Positions 2,820-64,000 of a stretch of 64,000 nucleotides of DNA are shown one piece after another. This stretch comes from Bacteriovoracaceae bacterium. Its GTDB lineage: Bacteria; Bdellovibrionota; Bacteriovoracia; Bacteriovoracales; Bacteriovoracaceae. The translations under genes and the position numbers were made by a program. The first letter of the stretch is position 1; every line of letters begins with the position of its first letter. The notes beneath the pieces are model-generated. The model was not told where the DNA came from, did no database searches, and worked only from the letters and a program-made list of their open reading frames with translations. Where the stretch lies: contig JAGSHI010000002.1 in NCBI GenBank assembly GCA_023954635.1, positions 1-64,000 of the forward strand. Reading direction: 5' to 3'.

Positions 2820-3914
2820 TTGAAACGAGTTTTAACTCTTTGTACATTCTTAGGAGTAATGAGCAACGTTTTGGCCGTTGAAGGGATTGAGCTCAATTCA
2901 AAAGTGAGCCTCAATGGAAGTCATGTCGGTGGCAAACTCAATGAAGCTCGAACGTTTGGATTAAACTCTCAATTAAATTTTAATCAATACATAAATGAAA
3001 AATTAAAAATAAATTTAGCGGGTGGACTTTCGCTCGAAACAGGAAATAGTGAAACCGTTTATGGCGCTGGAACTTTTAAGCCTACAAACTCTCTCTACTT
3101 AATCAATGCAAAGGCAATCTACTCACCCTTTAAAAGAGTTACACTGGCTGCAGGGGCAATTAATCAAAATTATCAAAAAAACCCTCTCTTTATAACATCT
3201 ACTCCTTTTATAGGAGCTCAAGAAGTTTTCTCATATAAAATTTCGAACTGGACTATTGAACTTGATTTACTTCAGTCAATCCCTTCAAACCATACTCTTT
3301 CTAAAAGACTTGGAAGTGTAAATGAAGGATCTGCAAAATTTTATAATGAGAAGATTAGAGTGAAAGGTGAAGGGAATGTTTTAAGTGTAAACGCAAGTAT
3401 CGGGCATTTTGCATTTGATCAACTGAGTTCTTCTGTAGCATATGAAAGCCGGTTACTAGGAAATAGTGTTTCAGGTATTGGAAACATTAATAACAAGTTT
3501 AAATATTCATTTATAGGGTGGAATGGTGATTTTGCTCTTGATTATAAGAATTTACCAGGAACAACAATTTCTTTAAATTCAGCTTGGCATCTTAATTCGA
3601 AGGCACCATCAAATAAAAACCTCGGTTACAAAATAGGACCTTCTATTGCTTTTGAAAGTGGTAATAGAATATACAAAATTGAATTAGAGTCATTTGAAAA
3701 CCAATCTGATTCAGCAGTAGCTTACTACAGCAGCAAGAACTATGGTCACGTGAATAGAAAAGGTGCTGCCATTGGCGCTTCAGTTGATGATATTCAGAAT
3801 CAAATAAATTACGGTCTTAAGGGAGTTGATACCAAACCCATTATCTCATCCCCATTTCAGTCAAAAGAAAGAATCATATCGATCTTTTTAAGGAAGAATT
3901 ATGAACTCTTTTAA
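2820..3914 (+). CDS. Exported beta-barrel-like outer membrane protein
   Basis: 364 residues starting with TTG, chosen because GGGG sits five bases upstream and the N-terminus is a clean signal peptide (cleavage probably after SNVLAVE, about residue 20-21). The mature part is rich in alternating polar/hydrophobic stretches with Asn, Ser, Gly and aromatic residues, typical of outer membrane barrels, and it ends in aromatic NYELF. No family is recognised. It is first of seven co-directional genes and overlaps the next by 14 bases, so the two products are probably made together. By position it may be part of an export pore for the polysaccharide made by genes further down; that is inference. Confidence 0.72.
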   Translation: MKRVLTLCTFLGVMSNVLAVEGIELNSKVSLNGSHVGGKLNEARTFGLNSQLNFNQYINEKLKINLAGGLSLETGNSETVYGAGTFKPTNSLYLINAKAIYSPFKRVTLAAGAINQNYQKNPLFITSTPFIGAQEVFSYKISNWTIELDLLQSIPSNHTLSKRLGSVNEGSAKFYNEKIRVKGEGNVLSVNASIGHFAFDQLSSSVAYESRLLGNSVSGIGNINNKFKYSFIGWNGDFALDYKNLPGTTISLNSAWHLNSKAPSNKNLGYKIGPSIAFESGNRIYKIELESFENQSDSAVAYYSSKNYGHVNRKGAAIGASVDDIQNQINYGLKGVDTKPIISSPFQSKERIISIFLRKNYELF

Positions 3915-6486
3915 ACTCCTAAATATATTTTTCTTGATATTAGCAGTTGCCTTGAGTAGTTGTTCAACAGGTATTGATGGCGACGGGAATGAAGATAAAA
4001 GTACTGGAACCATAATATTGAATAGTTTAAGTGCTACTTCAATTCAAGAAGTTTTTGAGAATGCCGGTAGTGTAACGAGACCTACACATAAATCTTTTTT
4101 AATCACAGTTTGTTTAAAAGAAAACGTTCTTTTAGAGGCTATCCGAAATCAATCTTTTATAGTCAACACGAATCCAGAAAAAGCAATTAATAGTGACTCC
4201 AATGGATGTCTAAGATGGACTGAAAAAGTTGAGATGAAGTCTAGTTTCGAAAATAGATACGTTCTCTTTAATAGAAAATTATCTACAGAGAGCCCCTATA
4301 AAGGATCTATTAATATCAGATATGCTTTTAATATTTTTACAAATAATTTTGTAGATCTCCAACATGAAAGCCTTCCAGAAGATCAACTCGTTACCGCAGG
4401 AAAAGAAGACCTCAATGTTGATTTTGATATGACTGACTTAACAATCTACTTTGGTGGTTACGATACTGAACACGACGACTCCCGAGCAAAGAAACGAGTT
4501 ATCACGAAATGGATAGGATGTTTTAAGTTAAAAGCAGACATGAGCTCAGTTTCAAACCAAATTATTGAAATGAAAGTTCTCGATGAAAAAGGTGAAGTCG
4601 TTCAAGAAGTTGTTAACAAAACTGACCTAAAGGGTTGTTTGAGGGCCAATATTTATACTGAGTATGATCAATTTGAAAAAGTTAGATGGATTCCAAGAAG
4701 ACTCGTAGTTAAAACAATTGATGGCCCCCTTGAAGGACAAGTACTTAATAGAGATATCTATATAAACCCTTGGGTTAATGGTAGAAATCACGGCTGGGAT
4801 TCGAGAGCTGGTAAACCTCCTCAAAACCCTATTGGCGACAATGCAAAACTTCATATTGACCATGTTCGTTACACTTTCCTTGGTAACAGAGAAGATGGCT
4901 ACCAGGTAAATAAATTTTTAGACCTCAGTGTAACTAAAACTTACCTTTTGGAGATTCGACCAAAAATTAACAGAGGGCACAGCTTTTCAACGAACAGACT
5001 TATTGAAGATATTTATACAGGTCAATTTACATTAAAAGTATCAATTCTTGCTGCCACGAAAGGTGACACGGAGATAACCTCTAAAAATGTAGAGTCTTTC
5101 AAATTTATCTCTGGGATCAAAAAGGATGTTGAAGTCATCAATAATAAAATCATCACAACTGTCGAGTTACCGTTTCGATTTGATCAACTTTCAGAGTCAG
5201 CTGCCAGAACAGTCGCTATACTGGAACTCTCTCCGAAAGACCCTGAAGCAGAAAATCTTCAACCTGTTATTGTTTCTGGAAAGTTTTTAGCCTCTTCTCA
5301 TCAGTTAAGTGTTGGACTTCGCCCTCACGACAGAGATCTTAAAACGGAATCTAAGTTAAATATTGGAGAAGACATTTTACGAAGTAAGCTAGATCCCATC
5401 AAAAACTTGATGCGATCCAAAGAACTTGATTCTAAATGGAAAGGAAATCCAATTGATATTTTCTCAGAATTACACAAAGACAATCCAAATAAGCAGCTAC
5501 CAATTATTACGCTTAAAAGAAATCGAGTTAACAATATTTTAGATGAAGATAAAATTTCTGCAGCTGAGTTTAACTCTTTTCATGCAAATCCACTGAAAAA
5601 AGAATTACTTAACAAAGTATGTTCTTACTTTTATCCGAAAAAGCTTGTGACTGGTATCATCTGGGATAGTTATGAGTTCCCTAGAGAATATAAGAGATGT
5701 AAAAGAAATCCAGAATCAATTATCACAGCGACAAGTTATAAGCATATCTCTAAGATCATTGGTAAGCCCCAAAAGCTTTACTCCAGTAGCGATAGTTTCA
5801 ATATTGGAACCGGATTCCTTGTTTATAATGGAGAGAGTAGAAGAACAGCAGTTTCCAGAAGAGTCAGTTTTGGTGGTGGTTTAAATGCCAAGATTGAAAT
5901 TCCATTTATAAAAATGCTTAGCCTCGGAGTTGGAGTCAATGCAGATATTGCAAAGATATGGACAAGGGATGAAAGTCAGGGAACAACATCAAGAGCTCAA
6001 TTCTCTAGAAGTAGAAATCTTTTTAGTGACCAATTAAAATTAGGGTTCGAAGCTGAAGTTAAGAATTGTATTGTCGTAGAAGGAGTTGAGTATACTGAAT
6101 ATTCAAACTCAATGTCATATAGTCCATATGCAATGGCCCCTCAAACCATGACGACTAAACAAAACAAAAAAAGAATACAAATTTGCCAAGACAAAGATCA
6201 AAAAGAGTGGCTTGAAGAGAGCTGGTATTATATTGGTGAAAATAGACCAAATCATTCGATCCTTCGAGATCCATGGAGCATTTCAGAAAATTACCTTGGC
6301 AAGATTATTCGAGGCCGTGACAATTATGATATGTTTTATAACCTTATGACAGATGACACCAAAGTGATCTTTTTGGAGAAGATTGAGGCCATGCCAAGTA
6401 ACAATGCCTTAATTAATAGTTATTACAAAGATAAATCAAGACCAGTTCTAGAGGACATGGCCCTACCAGGTACTATTAAACTCTAA
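3901..6486 (+). CDS. Large lipoprotein (861 aa) of the polysaccharide-type locus
   Basis: The signal peptide ends in the lipobox LSSC, with Cys near residue 21 as the lipidation site, followed by an acidic and Gly-rich linker. The rest has repeated beta-rich segments. A strongly Gly/Val-patterned stretch near residues 640-690 resembles amphipathic membrane-inserting strands. Paired cysteines recur (VCLKE...GCLRW, GCFKL...GCLRA), suggesting duplicated N-terminal domains with disulfides. No known family recognised. The start overlaps the preceding barrel gene, and the stop is one base before the next ATG. It may be a periplasmic or surface partner of the barrel proteins. Confidence 0.72.
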   Translation: MNSFKLLNIFFLILAVALSSCSTGIDGDGNEDKSTGTIILNSLSATSIQEVFENAGSVTRPTHKSFLITVCLKENVLLEAIRNQSFIVNTNPEKAINSDSNGCLRWTEKVEMKSSFENRYVLFNRKLSTESPYKGSINIRYAFNIFTNNFVDLQHESLPEDQLVTAGKEDLNVDFDMTDLTIYFGGYDTEHDDSRAKKRVITKWIGCFKLKADMSSVSNQIIEMKVLDEKGEVVQEVVNKTDLKGCLRANIYTEYDQFEKVRWIPRRLVVKTIDGPLEGQVLNRDIYINPWVNGRNHGWDSRAGKPPQNPIGDNAKLHIDHVRYTFLGNREDGYQVNKFLDLSVTKTYLLEIRPKINRGHSFSTNRLIEDIYTGQFTLKVSILAATKGDTEITSKNVESFKFISGIKKDVEVINNKIITTVELPFRFDQLSESAARTVAILELSPKDPEAENLQPVIVSGKFLASSHQLSVGLRPHDRDLKTESKLNIGEDILRSKLDPIKNLMRSKELDSKWKGNPIDIFSELHKDNPNKQLPIITLKRNRVNNILDEDKISAAEFNSFHANPLKKELLNKVCSYFYPKKLVTGIIWDSYEFPREYKRCKRNPESIITATSYKHISKIIGKPQKLYSSSDSFNIGTGFLVYNGESRRTAVSRRVSFGGGLNAKIEIPFIKMLSLGVGVNADIAKIWTRDESQGTTSRAQFSRSRNLFSDQLKLGFEAEVKNCIVVEGVEYTEYSNSMSYSPYAMAPQTMTTKQNKKRIQICQDKDQKEWLEESWYYIGENRPNHSILRDPWSISENYLGKIIRGRDNYDMFYNLMTDDTKVIFLEKIEAMPSNNALINSYYKDKSRPVLEDMALPGTIKL

Positions 6487-17136: not shown

Positions 17137-19317
17137 CTAATACGTATATTGATCGTGTCCACAGATATTTTGTAATCTAGCTTTGGCCCGATCTAGCACA
17201 TAAAAAGGTCCCATAAACTTAACTTTACCGGCCCTTTTACACTTATCTTTTTCTCGATGGGTATAACAATGTTGTTGCTCTTCGATGTCAGAAAACCATT
17301 TGTAATAAGATAAAAGTCTTCCATCCTCAACAGAAGTATCAATCTCTATTGGTGTATTTCTTGAACGTTGAAAGTCTCTTTTCGCTAATGTAATTTTCTT
17401 ATTCATTGCTATTTTAGCATCACTTAGACGTTTTGCATTTCTTTGCCCAAATTCAGCTTTGTATTTTACTTCACAAGCCTTTCGTATTTTTCTTCTATTT
17501 CTAGATCTTGCAAAGTTGTTAGAACCATTTCGGTGACTGTTAAACCTTTTATTCCAATCAGGGTGACTTGTTTTACAGTTATCAACCCAATTATCTTCAT
17601 GGTCCTCAAGACCATCTTCTAAAGTTTCGAAGAGCTCTTCTGCATTTTCTATACGTTGATCCATAAAGTCTTCAGCAGTATCTTCATCATTTATTCTCTC
17701 AATAGCATCTGCCATATCTTCAATTCGATCTTCATTGTGCTCTTCCCACTCTTCTCTAGCATTTAAAATATTAATTCGATAACTCTGAAGAGCGGCTTCC
17801 GCTTCTCCAAGTTTCCCCATAATTCCCTGGAGCTTATCACAAAACATTTTATCGTTATAAACTTCAAATTGCTGAAGGTTTAAAAACTTTTTTAAGTTCG
17901 AAGCATTCGTCATTAGTTTTTCGACTTCGTCTAATTTCTTAGCTACGATTTCTTCACAACGCATATCTGTGGTTGAATCAAAAATATCTTCAAGTAGAGT
18001 TTTTCTTTTTTTCAGTCTTCTATGAGAAATTGATAAATGAGAAATAAGACTCTCTCTTGAAAGTTTATGTTTATCCTCTGGTCTGATACTCTCCTGGATT
18101 TTTTGCATTAGCTCTTGAGACATTAGAAAATTATCTAATAGACTTTCAAGTTTTCTGACAGCTTGGTTCATTTTTTCCCAGCCCTTTCTTGCTTTCTTAA
18201 ACTTTTCCCATCTTTCAGCTTTATTTTTTGCATCCGTTATTAAATTCCAAATTGCTTTTGCTCCTGCGACAACTCCATCGATAACAAGGTTTGCTAAAGT
18301 CGCACCAAAGACAGCCCCCGCCGATGTTGCAGCGGCGAGAGTAAACATGTGTTTAGGATCTAGCATTTTTTCTGCAATATCATTTGTTCTTGCATATTGC
18401 CGATTAGTTTCAGCCCAGTTCTGATTAGCGTTTGCCATTTGAGTATTTGAGTTTGCCCAGTTTTGATTACTATTGTTCCAATTAGTATTCGCATTACCTA
18501 TTTGCGTATTAGTATTGTTCCAGTTTTGATTAGCATTACCTATTTGAGTATTGGTATTGTTCCAGTTGTTGTTAGCATTTCCTAGTTCGGTATTGGTATT
18601 GTTCCAGTTGTTGTTAGCATTTCCTAGTTGGGTATTTGTTTGAGTTAACTGATTGTTAATCTGTCCAAAGTTATTATTTAATTGGTCAACAGAAGTTGTT
18701 AAGTCAGAAAAATCGAGAGGGTTTCCTCCTGAACCTGTTCCGCTTCCTCCTCCAAAAGGCCAGCCACCGAACTGTGCTTGTGCTTCAGATATAGGAGAAA
18801 CAAAATTGAATATAGAAAAATGTCTTTTCTTATTTGCTGTTTCGGCCATACCTCGTTGAATAATCAAAGACTCTGGTCCGACGCTATCTTGATAACCTAA
18901 CCTGAACGAAGCTGTACTAATCGAAAGAGACTCCTTCAACTCAGTTATATAAAATCGAAAGTAACGATTACCTTTCTTCCAAGGCCCTTCAACGACCATC
19001 GTCTTACCGATTTTTTTAGTAGTCCATCTTTCATCTTCACCGTATGCACTTTTTAAACTTAAAAATGTTTCAGCAGTTAATTTATCAGTTTTTTTCTTTT
19101 TAACTTGAAAGAAGGTAACAGTACCAATAGAAAAAACTTTTCCACCCACCATTGCATATCGACGAAAAACTTTTGATCGAGCAATCGTTTTACCTTTTTC
19201 TTTTTTTACTTTGACTGGAGTTGCCGTCCAACGCTTCAAAAAATATGAAGGGACTTCATAAGCAAATGAGGATGAACTGAAAACTATCCAGAGAAACAAA
19301 CAACCGACAAATTTCAT
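17137..19317 (-). CDS. Exported Asn-rich tandem-repeat protein with long helical domain
   Basis: 726 residues. Signal peptide 1-19 (cleavage after FAY region). Residues 20-165 form a beta-rich domain, then a Gly-rich linker (183-199). Five tandem copies of a 14-residue unit follow (residues 231-310; consensus LGNANNNWNNTNTQ), two heptads per repeat. Next come a hydrophobic Gly/Ala helix (324-356) that could insert in a membrane, and about 350 residues of charged helices with a few Cys. No family recognised. It lies 117 bases after the DUF4105 gene on the same strand. The layout suggests a surface or periplasmic fibre with a membrane segment. Confidence 0.75.
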   Translation of the reverse strand: MKFVGCLFLWIVFSSSSFAYEVPSYFLKRWTATPVKVKKEKGKTIARSKVFRRYAMVGGKVFSIGTVTFFQVKKKKTDKLTAETFLSLKSAYGEDERWTTKKIGKTMVVEGPWKKGNRYFRFYITELKESLSISTASFRLGYQDSVGPESLIIQRGMAETANKKRHFSIFNFVSPISEAQAQFGGWPFGGGSGTGSGGNPLDFSDLTTSVDQLNNNFGQINNQLTQTNTQLGNANNNWNNTNTELGNANNNWNNTNTQIGNANQNWNNTNTQIGNANTNWNNSNQNWANSNTQMANANQNWAETNRQYARTNDIAEKMLDPKHMFTLAAATSAGAVFGATLANLVIDGVVAGAKAIWNLITDAKNKAERWEKFKKARKGWEKMNQAVRKLESLLDNFLMSQELMQKIQESIRPEDKHKLSRESLISHLSISHRRLKKRKTLLEDIFDSTTDMRCEEIVAKKLDEVEKLMTNASNLKKFLNLQQFEVYNDKMFCDKLQGIMGKLGEAEAALQSYRINILNAREEWEEHNEDRIEDMADAIERINDEDTAEDFMDQRIENAEELFETLEDGLEDHEDNWVDNCKTSHPDWNKRFNSHRNGSNNFARSRNRRKIRKACEVKYKAEFGQRNAKRLSDAKIAMNKKITLAKRDFQRSRNTPIEIDTSVEDGRLLSYYKWFSDIEEQQHCYTHREKDKCKRAGKVKFMGPFYVLDRAKARLQNICGHDQYTY
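18388..18636 (-). repeat. In-frame tandem repeat, period 42 bases (14 codons)
   Basis: The unit encodes Leu/Ile-Gly-Asn-Ala-Asn-x-Asn-Trp-Asn-Asn-Thr/Ser-Asn-Thr-Gln. Two adjacent copies are nearly identical at DNA level; outer copies have diverged, and one carries an additional seven-residue half-unit. Copy number may vary between strains by slippage. Confidence 0.85.
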
Positions 19318-19434: not shown

Positions 19435-21276
19435 CTAGTAATAAAAATACATTCCCAGTTTATGAACGATAACTTCCCTACCATCTTTGGTTTTACTTAG
19501 ATTAGAATTAATTTTGATATCACCGAGTCTTTCAAGACCAATTGTCATTCCAGCTGTTGAGCCTAAAATCCATTGACTAGATTTATTCGCCAGGTCTGAT
19601 TTGATGTTTCCTTCCAAATAAAATTTTAATTTTTTATTAGCAGCATGACCTATTCGAGAAGTCGCAATCCACCCTGCACTATGACCATCAGGTAAGTCTT
19701 TTGCAACTTGTGTAAACCCTCCCGCTAAAACACTAAAAAGGGATTTGTTTTTATTCATAAATGAAATTCCAATCTTCCCTTCAAGATTTATCGCCATACA
19801 ATAATCACATCGATAATCTGAGACTCTTTTGATATTTGAATTTACTTCCCAGGAAGCTCCGGGATCAATAGTGTTGAGAGGGGTATGAGAAGTAACTGAT
19901 ATGAATTCTATTTTCTTCATCGTGATTCTTTCATCACCAGCTTCAACTTCAAGTCCAAAAGCCTCCACTCGACTAAAGGGTTCGTAACCCATGTCGGTAT
20001 CAGTCCAGTCTTTAAAAATTTGATAATTTGAAAACTCAAAAAAGAGATCTTCTTTATCGTGTGCCATCCCTAAACTTAGTAAACTCGATTGATGCCCTGT
20101 CTCCGGTCTATTTTGAGAAGATACTAATACCAAAGGAGAGCTTTCTTTTCTTCTCGCCCTTCTCTTTAAAAGTTTCCTATAGAGCTTTTTAGATTGCTTA
20201 GTAAGTCTTCCTTTTGCCTTCATTTTTTTATAATTAAAATAATCCAATGCTGTATCGAGTGAAGTAATCCTTTCATTTTTAACTTTTTTATTTTTAATTA
20301 GATTCTCGAAATCTTTTTTCTCTTTCTCATTTAAATATTTGATTCTTTGTTCTAATACCTTCTTTACTCCTGGCCGGAATTTCACAGACCGAAGAGGAAT
20401 TTCTCGTGTAACACGTTTAACGACATCATGAGGCATTACAAACCATTTATGATCTTCTACAAGGTTCCAAGTTGGATTTCCGACATTTAAAAGAGCAGCA
20501 AGAGTATATGAACAATTTTCATCTAGGAACCAGTAATCAAACCAAGCATTATAATATAACTCCCAAAGGTGAGCTAATATCAAATCGATCTCTGATTTTT
20601 CAAGCTTAAGTTCATATTCCCACAAGTCACGGCTTTCTATTTGTGCATATTCATTAACTTTTTGATAGTAGGGACTAAGACTAAACCCTGCTCGGTATTG
20701 ACCAAACAATCCCTTCATTGCGTACAACACAGGATTATCAGATCCGTCTACCATGGCCCCAAAACTTGCTCCATAATCTAAAAGGTCATTCTCTCTTTTC
20801 CCTTTTTTGAACCTAATAAAAGTATGGCCAAACATTGATGCTGGATTATTTGGGTATGAGCTTGCAAAGATTAAAGCTATTCCCTTGGGATCAACTCCCT
20901 TTTTCCAGTTCTCAAAATCCTTACAATAAATATTTTGAAATTTTAGCTTCAATGTTTTTTCTAAAAACATTCGTCTTGCAGGAAAACGGCAGAGTGGATG
21001 TTTATTAACATCTCCTTTTATTTTTTTTCTAAATTTAATAAGTGTAGATTTAAGTTCTTTATCTGGATCGATTTTTCCCTTTTTGTTTAGAAAAAATCGA
21101 GGACTATCTATCCTAGACTCTGAAAGATCTTCCTTCTTTTCCATATGAAGTAGAAGTTTCCACTGCCTAGTTCTTGAAATGGTTTGTACAGGATCAAAAT
21201 TATCGGCAGCAAGACTTACTGCCGATATCAATAAAGTAAGAAGAAGTGATTGTTTTATGATCAAACAGTTCCACAT
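19435..21276 (-). CDS. DUF4105 (Lnb N-terminal-like) exported protein with C-terminal barrel-like half
   Basis: 613 residues with a hydrophobic leader (about 7-24). Residues 130-260 match the DUF4105 type domain: SSYPNNPASMFGHTFIRF with His151, the GLFGQYRAGFSLSPYY segment, and FLDENCSY with Cys255. The conserved His and Cys suggest a papain-like thiol hydrolase; that is inference. From about 385 onward the sequence alternates like an outer membrane barrel and ends in MYFYY. The start overlaps the DUF3015 gene by 16 bases. A second DUF3015-DUF4105 pair lies at the right end of the window, so this is a duplicated two-gene module. Confidence 0.8.
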   Translation of the reverse strand: MWNCLIIKQSLLLTLLISAVSLAADNFDPVQTISRTRQWKLLLHMEKKEDLSESRIDSPRFFLNKKGKIDPDKELKSTLIKFRKKIKGDVNKHPLCRFPARRMFLEKTLKLKFQNIYCKDFENWKKGVDPKGIALIFASSYPNNPASMFGHTFIRFKKGKRENDLLDYGASFGAMVDGSDNPVLYAMKGLFGQYRAGFSLSPYYQKVNEYAQIESRDLWEYELKLEKSEIDLILAHLWELYYNAWFDYWFLDENCSYTLAALLNVGNPTWNLVEDHKWFVMPHDVVKRVTREIPLRSVKFRPGVKKVLEQRIKYLNEKEKKDFENLIKNKKVKNERITSLDTALDYFNYKKMKAKGRLTKQSKKLYRKLLKRRARRKESSPLVLVSSQNRPETGHQSSLLSLGMAHDKEDLFFEFSNYQIFKDWTDTDMGYEPFSRVEAFGLEVEAGDERITMKKIEFISVTSHTPLNTIDPGASWEVNSNIKRVSDYRCDYCMAINLEGKIGISFMNKNKSLFSVLAGGFTQVAKDLPDGHSAGWIATSRIGHAANKKLKFYLEGNIKSDLANKSSQWILGSTAGMTIGLERLGDIKINSNLSKTKDGREVIVHKLGMYFYY

Positions 21277-21713
21277 TCACCATGGATAATGATTTTATCC
21301 AATACTTCTACAGCATTTTCATTATCACCTTTGTAAATTTTATCAAAACTACCTTGCAGCGAAGGAGCAAACTTATCCATTTTGCATCCTAAGATTTCGT
21401 TAAAAGCACTTAAGTACTCTCCACTTCCTCTTGAGATATCAAGCATTAATTGATGATGGTTTGCTTCAGCAAAATGAATGGCCTCTTTTTCTGTTTTCAC
21501 AATACTGTGTTGAGAACAGTTTGAAGTTCCAAATGTCATTCCCAGAGTATTTAGCAACATTGCGTTGGTTGTCGCTCTCAGTGAAGAAGAAACCAAAGAG
21601 TTCTTTTTCAGTATGTACCAACCAGCTCCACAACCAGAACTACTGTCCTTAGCAAAAGATTGAGCTGACATAGATAAAATAGTCAAAAGCATAAGTATTT
21701 TTATAATTTTCAT
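21261..21713 (-). CDS. DUF3015 family small exported protein
   Basis: 150 residues with signal peptide MKIIKILMLLTILSMSAQSFA, then GCGAGWYILKK, LRATTNAM, GMTFGTSNC and DISRGSGEYLSAF. The pattern GCGxG...ATTN...GMTxGTSNC...ISRGxG is shared with the gene at 62729. Cysteines likely form disulfides in the periplasm. Function of the family is unknown. It overlaps DUF4105 translationally, so the two proteins probably act together, perhaps as substrate or chaperone and processing partner. Divergent from the 21813 gene across about 100 bases. Confidence 0.85.
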   Translation of the reverse strand: MKIIKILMLLTILSMSAQSFAKDSSSGCGAGWYILKKNSLVSSSLRATTNAMLLNTLGMTFGTSNCSQHSIVKTEKEAIHFAEANHHQLMLDISRGSGEYLSAFNEILGCKMDKFAPSLQGSFDKIYKGDNENAVEVLDKIIIHGECGTV

Positions 21714-24623: not shown

Positions 24624-26141
24624 TTATTTTAACTTCACTTTATAACTTCCTTTCGCTGATTTATAACCTTTTACAACAACATAATAAGTCCCTTTAGGTA
24701 AGTATTTAGTCATTTTCTCAAAGCTCTTTACACTTGTTGACTTATCTAAAACATCTTCCGATTCATTTATGAGAAAAAGATCCAAGTCTCCTACGGAATG
24801 ATCAAAGCTTAAGCTAACATCAACTGTTTTTCCATGAGTTAACTTGAATTCATAATAATCAAGATCACCAGCAGTATCTATTTTTTTATCTAACTCAGTT
24901 GGAAGTGAAACTGAAGTAGCTGTCGCAACACTATCATTGGGTTCATTTCCAACAGCTTGCCCATTAACAGAGATCTGTATTTTATATTTTGCTTTTGCTC
25001 CTTTATAGCCAAACACTTTCACATAAAAAGTCCCTTTAGGGGCATCATACTCTATAGATTCCTGACTTGAAGTTGACTCACTTTTAGCAATTGTCTTTCT
25101 TGACCCATTAATGAGTTTCAAATCGAGGTCACCTTCTGAATGTGAGAAGGTCACTTTTACTTTTATCTTGCCTGCAGAAGTCGTTTTAAATTTAAAGTAA
25201 TCATTATCTGATGATGATCCAACTTTTAAGTTAGCTTCAAATGGAAGTCCTACATATGCACTCGAACTTAATGAGTTGTTTGGCTCATAGTCTTGAGCTG
25301 ATTGATCATCGTCTCCATCATCACTTCCATCATCAGAACTCCCCCCCAAATCGACTTGAGGAAAATGAGTAAGAATATAGGGAACAATTTTAGACATCGG
25401 AACAGCAAAGTTCTCATAACCTCTACCTCTTCCATTGTTACCTGCTCCTGCATGATGGATAGCAACTACCTCATGATTTGACTTACTAAAAACAGGAGAT
25501 CCACTAGAGCCACCTAAGGTATCGGCATTGTGAGAATATTCAGCCGCAACTTTCGTTATATTTCCTTCTGAGTATTTTTTAGTCCAGTCACAATCTGAAC
25601 TTGTATAATAATCACAGTTTTGTTGAACAATATAGATCGATGTATTTTTACTCTTTGCATCTGAGTCTAATTTAACAAACCCAAATTTTCTCCCTGGCTT
25701 ACCGGCACATTTTAAAAGAGCAAAATCTAACTCTCTATTATTGCCGATAAAGGTAGAGCAATTATATTTTGCTTGATTAGCAGTGCTTACCCCTTTTTCG
25801 TGTTTGAATTTTACTGTGACCCCACTTGCATAACGACTGCTTGGGATACAGTGATGATTTGTCATAAAGACATCTTCAGAAATAAGAAACCCAGTACAAC
25901 GACTTCCCATAACAGGTAGATCGACATCTCCGACGGCCTTTCCATTTATTCGAATTTGGTTTGATGATGATAAACCTGTAATTTCTTTCCAATCAAGATC
26001 ACCAATAATAATCTGGCTTTGAAAAACACTACTATAATCAGATGGTAGGTTCTGTTTTCCGCAGGCCCCCAAAAGCACCATAGTTGAAATTAAAATAATA
26101 GATTTAAAAAACTTACTCTCTCTCCCTCTCGCTCTCATCAT
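24624..26141 (-). CDS. Lipoprotein trypsin-like serine protease with two PPC domains
   Basis: 505 residues. The leader ends in lipobox LLGAC (Cys27). The chymotrypsin-fold protease (about 60-260) has TNHHC (His97), LDFALL (Asp139) and LGGSSGSPV (Ser213), similar to V8/Glu-specific-type enzymes. After an Asp/Ser linker come two pre-peptidase C-terminal domains (about 280-390 and 395-505), each opening with an EPN-D/N motif and ending in GTYYVKV-like strands. PPC domains usually fold on secreted proteases and bind surfaces. AAGGAG precedes the ATG by five bases. Likely surface-anchored digestion of foreign protein. Confidence 0.88.
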   Translation of the reverse strand: MMRARGRESKFFKSIILISTMVLLGACGKQNLPSDYSSVFQSQIIIGDLDWKEITGLSSSNQIRINGKAVGDVDLPVMGSRCTGFLISEDVFMTNHHCIPSSRYASGVTVKFKHEKGVSTANQAKYNCSTFIGNNRELDFALLKCAGKPGRKFGFVKLDSDAKSKNTSIYIVQQNCDYYTSSDCDWTKKYSEGNITKVAAEYSHNADTLGGSSGSPVFSKSNHEVVAIHHAGAGNNGRGRGYENFAVPMSKIVPYILTHFPQVDLGGSSDDGSDDGDDDQSAQDYEPNNSLSSSAYVGLPFEANLKVGSSSDNDYFKFKTTSAGKIKVKVTFSHSEGDLDLKLINGSRKTIAKSESTSSQESIEYDAPKGTFYVKVFGYKGAKAKYKIQISVNGQAVGNEPNDSVATATSVSLPTELDKKIDTAGDLDYYEFKLTHGKTVDVSLSFDHSVGDLDLFLINESEDVLDKSTSVKSFEKMTKYLPKGTYYVVVKGYKSAKGSYKVKLK

Positions 26142-61940: not shown

Positions 61941-62612
61941 TTGCATCTAACCATAGTAGATGACATGCAAGACAACTTAGAGTGTTACCAAGAACTTTTG
62001 GGTGACAGGTTTGAGCTGGAGCTTATTCAAGACCCTACAGGTCTTATTCCTTTCCTTTCTAAAACTTCAACAGACATGCTTATTCTCGATCTTCATATGC
62101 CTAAGATAGAAGGTTTTGAGCTCTTTGAAGAAGTTCGAAAAGACCATAAGAACTTACCAGTTATTTTTCTTACGGCCGACCCTTCGGAAGATGCTGTTGT
62201 AAAAGGTTTAAGTCTTGGAGCAGAAGACTTCATTACTAAGCCAGTTTCTTTAAGAGAACTTGAAGCTAGAATTCTTAACAAGCTCATTAAGAGCCCTGAA
62301 CTTTCCGGAGAAGAATCTTCTGAAAAGTGTCTTAAGTTTGATGGCTTTATTCTGTACTTAAAGACTCAATCAGCAAAAGTTGAAGACAAACTGATTCAAC
62401 TAACTCCAATTGAGTTCAAACTAATCTCGCTTTTGGCCTCAAATCCAAATGAAGTTTACGATAGATCATATATCTCAAACATGCTGTGGCCTAACGTACA
62501 CGTACAGAACCAAAACATAGATACTCACCTCTCAAACTTGAGAAAAAAGCTTCATCCGTTTTCTAAAAATATTAAAACGATTAAATCTCGCGGGTACATT
62601 CTTAGAATCTGA
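61941..62612 (+). CDS. OmpR-family response regulator
   Basis: 223 residues with TTG start (AGGAG eight bases upstream). Receiver: DD 7-8, phospho-acceptor Asp50 in ILDLHMP, Thr78, Lys100 in ITKP. Winged helix-turn-helix: QLTPIEFKLISLLASNPNEVYDR, and IKSRGYILRI at the end. No histidine kinase adjoins it. Orphan regulator of unknown target. Confidence 0.9.
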   Translation: MHLTIVDDMQDNLECYQELLGDRFELELIQDPTGLIPFLSKTSTDMLILDLHMPKIEGFELFEEVRKDHKNLPVIFLTADPSEDAVVKGLSLGAEDFITKPVSLRELEARILNKLIKSPELSGEESSEKCLKFDGFILYLKTQSAKVEDKLIQLTPIEFKLISLLASNPNEVYDRSYISNMLWPNVHVQNQNIDTHLSNLRKKLHPFSKNIKTIKSRGYILRI

Positions 62613-62728: not shown

Positions 62729-63187
62729 ATGAAAAAACTTCTACTTACTATGCTTGCTTTTGGAATGATGTCTGCTGCTAACGCTGCTTCTTATCAGGCT
62801 CAAGGTTGTGGACTTGGATCAACAATTTGGACAGACGGATCAAGTCTTGTACACCAAATTCTTGGAGCTACAACTAACGGACTTTCTGGTAACCAAACTT
62901 TTGGTATGACATCAGGAACTTCAAACTGTGAACTTGATGGAGCTGGTGGACAAGCTCAAACAGTTTTCATCGAAGCTAACAAAGTTGCTCTTTCTAACGA
63001 CATCGCTCGTGGAAACGGAACAACTCTTGCTTCACTTACAAAAATGTACGGTTGTTCAAATGTTGATGCCGTAGGAACAGTTCTTCAAAAAAGATATGAA
63101 GAAATTTTTCCTTCACAGAATGCTGCTGCGACTTCAATTAACAGCAAAATTTCTAACATCATCGACGAAACTAAAGCTTGTATCTAA
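62729..63187 (+). CDS. DUF3015 family small exported protein (second copy)
   Basis: 152 residues, signal peptide MKKLLLTMLAFGMMSAANA. QGCGLGSTIW, GATTNGLSG, GMTSGTSNC, DIARGNG and MYGCSN match the family pattern and the first copy at 21261. Strong GGAGG ribosome site and strongly biased codons indicate high expression. Followed after 50 bases by a DUF4105 gene, as in the first pair, but here with a terminator between. Confidence 0.88.
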   Translation: MKKLLLTMLAFGMMSAANAASYQAQGCGLGSTIWTDGSSLVHQILGATTNGLSGNQTFGMTSGTSNCELDGAGGQAQTVFIEANKVALSNDIARGNGTTLASLTKMYGCSNVDAVGTVLQKRYEEIFPSQNAAATSINSKISNIIDETKACI

Positions 63188-63211: not shown

Positions 63212-63255
63212 GCCCTGATCATCTAGGCTGATGCCTTATGATCAGGGCTTTTTTT
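63212..63255 (+). terminator. Intrinsic terminator containing the start codon of the next gene
   Basis: GCCCTGATCAT (63212-63222) and ATGATCAGGGC (63238-63248) pair perfectly over 11 bases with a 15-base loop, followed by seven T. The ATG of the DUF4105 gene is the first three bases of the second arm, so the hairpin both terminates and buries the start. Confidence 0.88.
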
Positions 63256-64000
63256 ATACTCAATATTCTTATTTTTTCATGTAGTGTATTCTCTGCAAGT
63301 TCAAAAGAATTTAATCAACTAATAAAAACAGGTTTAAACAACTCAGCTCATCTTGATGCTCAATGGCTTAACGCTCTTCATTATAAGAAAACTTTATTTG
63401 GAGGTTTCCAGAGTGAAGCCGACAGTAAGTCTTTCTTTTTTGCAAAAGACGGAGAAGATAATTCCAAATCAGAAATGCAGGCCACAATATTGGCCCTACT
63501 TGAAGGTAAGCCTTCAGATATAAATCAACACGCTCAATGTCGATTTCCAACGCGTACAAAAATAATTAAAAGACTTTTTCCAGACCTTGCCAATAATTTA
63601 AAAATCGTTTGTCCCCAGTTCGAAGAGTTTAAGAAAAAATTATCTGCGAAAGCTGTTTCAATTGTTTTTTCTTCCTATTATTTGGATACTCCAGCTTCAG
63701 CTTTTGGGCACACTTTAATGCGTTTTAGTAAATATGCAGATCCAAAAGAGGGTGAATCTTTTGAGCTTCTCGACAATGCCGTAAATTATTCAGCAAATGT
63801 AACAACAAATAATGCTCTCATTTATGGACTACTTGGGCTTTCAGGTGGCTTTAAAGGTGAGTTCGCTTTTATGCCTTATTTTTATAAAGTTCGTGAGTAT
63901 AACGACTTTGAATCAAGAGATATATGGGATTACCATTTAAACCTTAATCAAGAACAAATAGACACTGTAGTCACACATGTCTGGGAAATGAAGCAAACTT
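63238..64000 (+). CDS. DUF4105 family exported protein (second copy, cut by window end)
   Basis: 254 residues visible, frame open to the window end. Signal peptide MIRAFFILNILIFSCSVFS; then SSYYLDTPASAFGHTLMRF, DNAVNYSANV, GLLGLSGGFKGEFAFMPYFYKVREYNDFESRDIWDY, colinear with the first copy (19435). The His of FGHT is present; the Cys of ENCSY lies beyond the window. The start codon is inside a terminator hairpin; an in-frame stop (63229-63231) excludes an earlier start. Confidence 0.83.
   Translation, partial: MIRAFFILNILIFSCSVFSASSKEFNQLIKTGLNNSAHLDAQWLNALHYKKTLFGGFQSEADSKSFFFAKDGEDNSKSEMQATILALLEGKPSDINQHAQCRFPTRTKIIKRLFPDLANNLKIVCPQFEEFKKKLSAKAVSIVFSSYYLDTPASAFGHTLMRFSKYADPKEGESFELLDNAVNYSANVTTNNALIYGLLGLSGGFKGEFAFMPYFYKVREYNDFESRDIWDYHLNLNQEQIDTVVTHVWEMKQT

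Follow-up and report, generated by a model that had tools for sequence, protein, structure and literature searches.

Genetic organization of two DUF3015-DUF4105 gene pairs

The window, i.e. the whole analysed stretch of 64,000 nucleotides from contig JAGSHI010000002.1 of a Bacteriovoracaceae bacterium, contains two copies of a two-gene module that combines a small protein of the DUF3015 family with a large protein of the DUF4105 family. The following genes and domains were assigned.

21261..21713, minus strand: DUF3015 copy 1, 150 aa (Pfam PF11220, 105.4 bits versus a cut-off of 25)
19435..21276, minus strand: DUF4105/Lnb_N protein copy 1, 613 aa (Pfam PF13387 and AlphaFold2 model)
20404..20916, minus strand: Lnb_N catalytic domain of copy 1, aa 121-291 (Pfam, invariant residues, model)
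19441..20082, minus strand: predicted 12-stranded outer-membrane beta-barrel of copy 1, DUF7840, aa 399-612 (model and Foldseek)
62729..63187, plus strand: DUF3015 copy 2, 152 aa (Pfam PF11220, 140.3 bits versus a cut-off of 25)
63238..64000, continuing to contig position 65151, plus strand: DUF4105/Lnb_N protein copy 2, 637 aa (Pfam PF13387); positions 3239-5152 of the extracted locus L003

The family PF13387, formerly named DUF4105 and now Lnb_N, matched the large protein of copy 1 with 179.3 bits and the whole protein of copy 2, the reading frame of which is still open at the window end (64000), with 178.5 bits (cut-off 22.2). The DUF3015 and DUF4105 reading frames of copy 1 have 16 bases in common (21261-21276), and this 16-base overlap was seen again in seven of the genomes examined. 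The translations contain the motifs GCGAG or GCGLG and GMTFGTSNC or GMTSGTSNC in the DUF3015 proteins of copies 1 and 2, respectively, as well as ATTN in both DUF3015 proteins and FGHT in both DUF4105 proteins. The reading frames, Pfam matches and translations thereby bear out the preliminary description of the locus as a two-copy module with a 16-base overlap and shared motifs. A hairpin of 12 pairs is located at 21201-21227 (minus strand), early in the DUF4105 coding sequence and just past the overlap.

The 3.7 Mb genome yielded exactly two matches to PF11220 and two to PF13387, all four within these two pairs. The DUF4105 copies are 26% and the DUF3015 copies 34% identical to each other, and by this measure the copies of both genes represent old, distant paralogues. 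The window contains one member from each of two old pair lineages.

Among the adjacent genes, a response regulator (61941-62612, plus strand) is located directly upstream of pair 2, and its position next to the pair is conserved in related genomes of the family. Pair 1 is followed at a short distance by a gene (17137-19317, minus strand) for a 726-aa exported protein that contains degenerate repeats rich in Asn (NNWNNTNTQIGNAN...). This gene was rejected as a third partner, as it is absent from related loci, even from the closest one, L069. The region 24624-26141 (minus strand) specifies, according to its translation only, a predicted secreted lipoprotein serine protease with a GGSSGSP motif and two repeated C-terminal domains.

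Distribution and co-divergence of the gene pair

The matches listed for both families were compared in 144 genomes of the window's phylum. Among these listed matches, 124 of the 128 DUF3015 proteins scoring at least 80 bits are encoded within 1.8 kb of a DUF4105 gene, mostly upstream of it and on the same strand, and 117 of 120 DUF4105 proteins with at least 119 bits have a DUF3015 neighbour, as opposed to none of the 30 with less than 119 bits. Among the exceptions, that of G134 represents one pair broken across contig ends, and the matches of G143 are likewise located near contig ends. Both families occur, again among the matches listed, in 84 of the 85 genomes carrying either. Up to three DUF3015 genes can accompany one DUF4105 gene, and 18 of 117 DUF4105 genes have two, whereas no DUF3015 gene common to two DUF4105 genes was found among the matches listed for this phylum. 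Several DUF3015 genes per DUF4105 gene, and never the reverse, are expected if DUF3015 is a substrate or an interchangeable partner.

When named genomes were scanned for DUF4105 alone, 80 loci were obtained, which are distributed over Bdellovibrionota, Nitrospirota, Pseudomonadota, Myxococcota, Desulfobacterota and other phyla, and a DUF3015-like gene is located at most 2.5 kb from DUF4105 in 76 of them. In 150 genomes of Pseudomonadota, DUF3015 was detected in 18, with 17 of the 20 matches adjoining DUF4105. Moreover, all eight plasmid records with DUF3015 also contain DUF4105 (the DUF4105 match set comprises nine plasmid records), and both genes lie side by side in the three records inspected. 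Near-constant adjacency over many genomes and phyla is thus observed instead of adjacency at chance level. DUF3015 genes lacking a DUF4105 neighbour include three in Pseudomonas-like genomes (L226, L228 and L229) and, in the window's phylum, divergent members of the family. The same pair is present in Pseudomonas, Acinetobacter, Nitrosomonas, Nitrospira and Marinobacter; since these non-predators carry it, a predation-specific role is unlikely, and the role in prey attack that the preliminary description had considered is not suggested by the distribution. In Acinetobacter, the pair (L223, 3334-6977) adjoins the blaADC beta-lactamase gene and is also found on plasmids.

Co-divergence of the two families was analysed in 20 genomes with two pairs by asking whether both trees match the paralogues alike, with 2000 random re-pairings (flips) as reference. 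Of the 190 genome comparisons, 180 showed concordant trees (mean 90 and maximum 148 in the random reference), a result that is independent of the species tree, and the tree distances of the two families correlate at 0.85. These data show that DUF3015 and DUF4105 have evolved as one unit. Together with the adjacency counts, they establish the coupled pair postulated earlier as a real, conserved and co-diverging unit.

Domain composition of the DUF4105 protein

The large protein of copy 1 consists of a signal peptide, DUF7843, the Lnb_N catalytic domain and the DUF7840 barrel. An AlphaFold2 model calculated from an alignment of 57 sequences (mean pLDDT 92.4, pTM 0.89) comprises the helical and catalytic parts, followed by 12 long strands (399-612). 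The residues His151 (codon 20824-20826, minus strand), Cys255 (codon 20512-20514, minus strand), Asn254, Cys96 and Cys118 are invariant in 161 of 161 barrel-type sequences. In the model, His151 opens the strand 151-158 and Cys255 is located at the N-terminus of the helix 255-266; this modelled arrangement, with His before Cys, at a strand start and a helix N-terminus, is the placement found in papain-like folds. The earlier proposal of an aligned, papain-like His/Cys pair is thereby supported for the large protein.

A Foldseek search of the PDB with the copy 1 model matched the strands to the 12-stranded outer-membrane barrels of NanC, KdgM, FapF and autotransporters, and barrel matches only were obtained. 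A sequence search of the PDB with DUF4105 gave no relevant relative, with weak matches to Max only, an hhalign comparison with one single E. coli YiiX sequence was not significant, and PHROGs contained no match for the pair 1 proteins or DUF3015 copy 2. Because the fold search returned the barrel only and YiiX was not matched, the assignment of the catalytic fold relies on Pfam, the published classification and the placement of secondary structure elements. DUF4105 is grouped among the permuted NlpC/P60 lipid-acting enzymes, which include enzymes with phospholipase A1/2 activity, and Lnb, the lipoprotein N-acyltransferase of Bacteroides, is reported to be a DUF4105 protein (PMC12994826); a list of papain-like domains likewise includes DUF4105 (PMC10318531).

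The DUF7840 domain is present in all 57 aligned pair members. Outer-membrane barrels typically end in an aromatic residue, and the last residue is aromatic in 145 of 161 barrel-type sequences, with copy 1 ending in Tyr-Tyr. A closed barrel with an even strand number (12), as modelled here, combined with an aromatic C-terminal residue corresponds to a BAM-type outer-membrane barrel. The barrel and the outer-membrane location of the large protein, the latter already proposed in the preliminary description, are accordingly predicted with high confidence on the basis of the model and the Foldseek matches. Residue 422, which belongs to the HDLLD motif of the barrel, is a histidine in 147 of 161 barrel-type proteins and a lysine in copy 1.

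Features of DUF3015 and its association with the barrel form

DUF3015 copy 1 is composed of a Sec/SPI-type signal peptide, which agrees with the proposed export of the small protein, a cysteine-containing half with the motifs GCGAG and GMTFGTSNC, and a helical C-terminal half. Cys27 and Cys67 are almost always conserved, and 155 of 162 sequences contain both. Two further cysteines (109 and 151) are either both present or both missing in nearly all sequences. From this conservation pattern, Cys27 and Cys67, and often also Cys109 and Cys151, probably form disulfides; S-acylation of Cys27 was consequently not adopted as the main claim. An ordinary lipoprotein was ruled out for typical members, as their signal peptide is of the AXA type and precedes the conserved cysteine of the GCG motif; a lipidated appearance is confined to a few divergent members. 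In these members (L102 and L123), a lipoprotein-type signal and a linker take the place of the N-terminal half and the helical half is kept, which suggests that the N-terminal half serves to keep the helical domain at the membrane.

In the model of DUF3015 copy 2, the C-terminal helical half (aa 73-148) reached pLDDT values above 95 and the N-terminal half values below 50. The N-terminal half is the more conserved one and is rich in Gly, Ser and Thr. The low values would fit an N-terminal half that folds upon the partner, although a shallow alignment could equally be their cause. DUF3015 has no relative in the PDB by sequence, a fold search gave no significant match, and no conserved cleavage-like site was detected besides the signal peptide and the cysteine motifs.

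DUF3015 was seen only with the barrel form of DUF4105. Twelve weaker DUF4105 proteins were scanned, nine of which carry DUF7844 and lack both DUF7840 and DUF3015; the other three (L165-L167) contain DUF7840 and have no DUF3015. Directly upstream of the barrel-type genes of L166 and L167, a small lipoprotein (2209-2559 and 2469-2822, respectively) occupies the place of DUF3015. In Pseudomonadota, no DUF3015 was found beside any short DUF4105 protein (approximately 330-450 aa, classed by length only). DUF3015 hence goes with the barrel and not with the catalytic domain alone. Small exported proteins or lipoproteins of other families were observed beside DUF4105 genes lacking DUF3015 in L172 (4183-4605) and L179 (4094-4513), in addition to L166 and L167.

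Genes in the vicinity of the pair in other genomes

An alpha/beta-hydrolase (lipase-like) lipoprotein of one family is encoded near DUF4105 in 28 of the 80 loci, often overlapping the DUF4105 end, and also in four further loci of Pseudomonadota. The window genome contains a homologue with 46% identity on contig 140, adjoining neither of the window pairs.

The solo DUF3015 genes of L226, L228 and L229 are located near a PilZ-like gene and radA. Judged from gene order only, the solo gene of Pseudomonas is probably PA4607, which is listed in a surface-shaving proteome (PMC8959810). PA4610 was ruled out, as it is a copper transporter in the literature and gene order favours PA4607.

Proposed function of the gene pair

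DUF3015 and DUF4105 most likely work together as a single machine for membrane lipids or protein lipidation that has not been described to date. The reading preferred here, with a probability of roughly 0.45, is that of a two-component outer-membrane enzyme which would carry out acyl transfer by means of Cys255 and His151, with DUF3015 as dedicated acceptor or acceptor-presenting partner. The C-terminal 12-stranded barrel is predicted to anchor the large protein in the outer membrane, so that the periplasmic Lnb/LRAT-type (permuted NlpC/P60) domain would be held at the inner leaflet of this membrane. With His151 as the activating residue, Cys255 would accept an acyl chain from a phospholipid as a thioester and hand it on. 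DUF3015 would leave the cytoplasm through Sec and dock on the barrel enzyme, acting either as the acyl acceptor itself or as a subunit presenting the acceptor. The odds of acyl chemistry, as indicated by family and neighbours, are put at about even, and a role of DUF3015 as acceptor rather than accessory is somewhat doubtful.

Since the catalytic domain is that of Lnb, a lipid-acting domain, acyl transfer or lipid hydrolysis appears likelier than peptide processing. The alternative that the large protein is a cysteine peptidase of the papain-like type, cleaving DUF3015 or anchoring it at the outer membrane, is close to the original proposal and draws on the invariant His and Cys in papain-like placement, on the listing of DUF4105 among papain-like domains (PMC10318531) and on the strict pairing of the two families. 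It is nevertheless rather improbable, as the activity of Lnb and of the related clades acting on lipids is the transfer or hydrolysis of acyl groups (PMC12994826), and no conserved cleavage-like site was seen in DUF3015 besides the signal peptide and the cysteine motifs. The papain-like His/Cys part of that proposal was thus retained, and the processing part gave way to acyl or lipid chemistry. If the barrel enzyme were instead an OMPLA-like phospholipase or lipid remodeller, with DUF3015 as a regulatory or lipid-presenting subunit and not as a substrate, the phospholipase A1/2 activity reported among permuted NlpC/P60 relatives (PMC12994826) and the alpha/beta-hydrolase lipoproteins nearby would be in line with it. 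The lipoprotein-type DUF3015 of L102 and L123 and the small upstream lipoproteins of L166 and L167 would likewise fit a tethered accessory subunit. This explanation is considered unlikely: the nearest characterised domain is an acyltransferase and not a hydrolase, and multiple DUF3015 proteins per enzyme suit substrates better than a subunit. The hydrolase lipoprotein also figures in an extended version of the preferred reading, in which the barrel-anchored Lnb/LRAT-type enzyme would acylate its own DUF3015 and the hydrolase would de-acylate it or clear lyso-lipid, a combination that seems distinctly unlikely as a whole.

An export of DUF3015 to the cell surface through the 12-stranded barrel in the manner of FapF or autotransporters, in which the His/Cys domain would serve as a gate or for processing, would be compatible with the presence of FapF and autotransporter barrels among the top structural matches and with the N-terminal half of DUF3015, which is conserved, rich in Gly, Ser and Thr and, in the model, does not fold alone. 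The occurrence of PA4607, by synteny maybe a solo DUF3015, among shaved proteins (PMC8959810) points in the same direction, but surface shaving frees periplasmic proteins too and the identity of PA4607 is derived from gene order. As the porins NanC and KdgM match equally well, and catalytic residues that are needless for export alone are kept in every barrel-type protein, this route is regarded as very unlikely. The two genes might also be only co-regulated and serve the same process without contact; the tight overlap or short gaps, the near-perfect co-occurrence and the co-divergence of paralogues fit direct interaction better and render this highly improbable.

With regard to the two-component acyl-transfer enzyme, the substrate range is narrowed by Lnt, which is present in the window genome (216.8 bits versus a cut-off of 132.9) and in each of the 122 good genomes from the window's phylum. 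A replacement of Lnt by DUF4105 was therefore dismissed. As Lnt performs general lipoprotein N-acylation in the same cells, the pair would not represent this step, and an acceptor role cannot simply be assigned to newly synthesised lipoproteins. If true, the unlikely extended version with the hydrolase would amount to a lipidation of proteins at the outer membrane that is separate from, and later than, the Lgt-Lsp-Lnt route. Here, a domain of the lipoprotein-acyltransferase type and a predicted outer-membrane barrel are combined in one protein in cells already having Lnt, and this barrel enzyme is tied to one small exported family over many Gram-negative phyla, with Pseudomonas and Acinetobacter among the carriers. 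This combination suggests that the outer membrane hosts a lipid or protein-acylation step not described so far, and it gives DUF3015 and DUF7840 a first role that can be tested.

Comparison with known systems

No description of the DUF3015-DUF4105 pair was found in the accessible open-access literature. The earlier view that the pair lacks a described function thus stands for the pair itself but not for the large domain, since DUF4105 corresponds to the catalytic domain of Lnb (PMC12994826). Lnb of Bacteroides likewise contains an Lnb_N domain (PF13387) with conserved His and Cys, and is defined by this domain together with PF25221 (5TMH_Lnb) and by the NCBIfam equivalog NF051878 with a cut-off of 550 bits. 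The latter scores 21.3 bits on copy 1 and has no listed match for copy 2, and PF25221 was not detected in the window genome, with a positive Bacteroides control. An Lnb equivalog was accordingly ruled out: the five-helix membrane domain is replaced by a predicted 12-stranded barrel, and the pair adds a dedicated DUF3015 partner.

In the permuted NlpC/P60 lipid enzymes LRAT, HRASLS, YiiX/YaeF, TseH and Tox-Act1, His precedes Cys, as in the DUF4105 protein, and neither a barrel fusion nor a DUF3015 partner was found described for them in the literature consulted. The barrels of NanC, KdgM, FapF and autotransporters resemble the modelled domain in size and fold, with approximately 8-11% identity, but here the barrel comes after a periplasmic His/Cys enzyme domain. 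OMPLA is also a 12-stranded outer-membrane barrel, and LptD-LptE is a two-gene outer-membrane unit of a barrel and a small partner. The DUF3015-DUF4105 pair shares with LptD-LptE a dedicated small exported partner for the barrel, whereas DUF3015 is usually no lipoprotein and the barrel protein of the pair carries a predicted catalytic domain.
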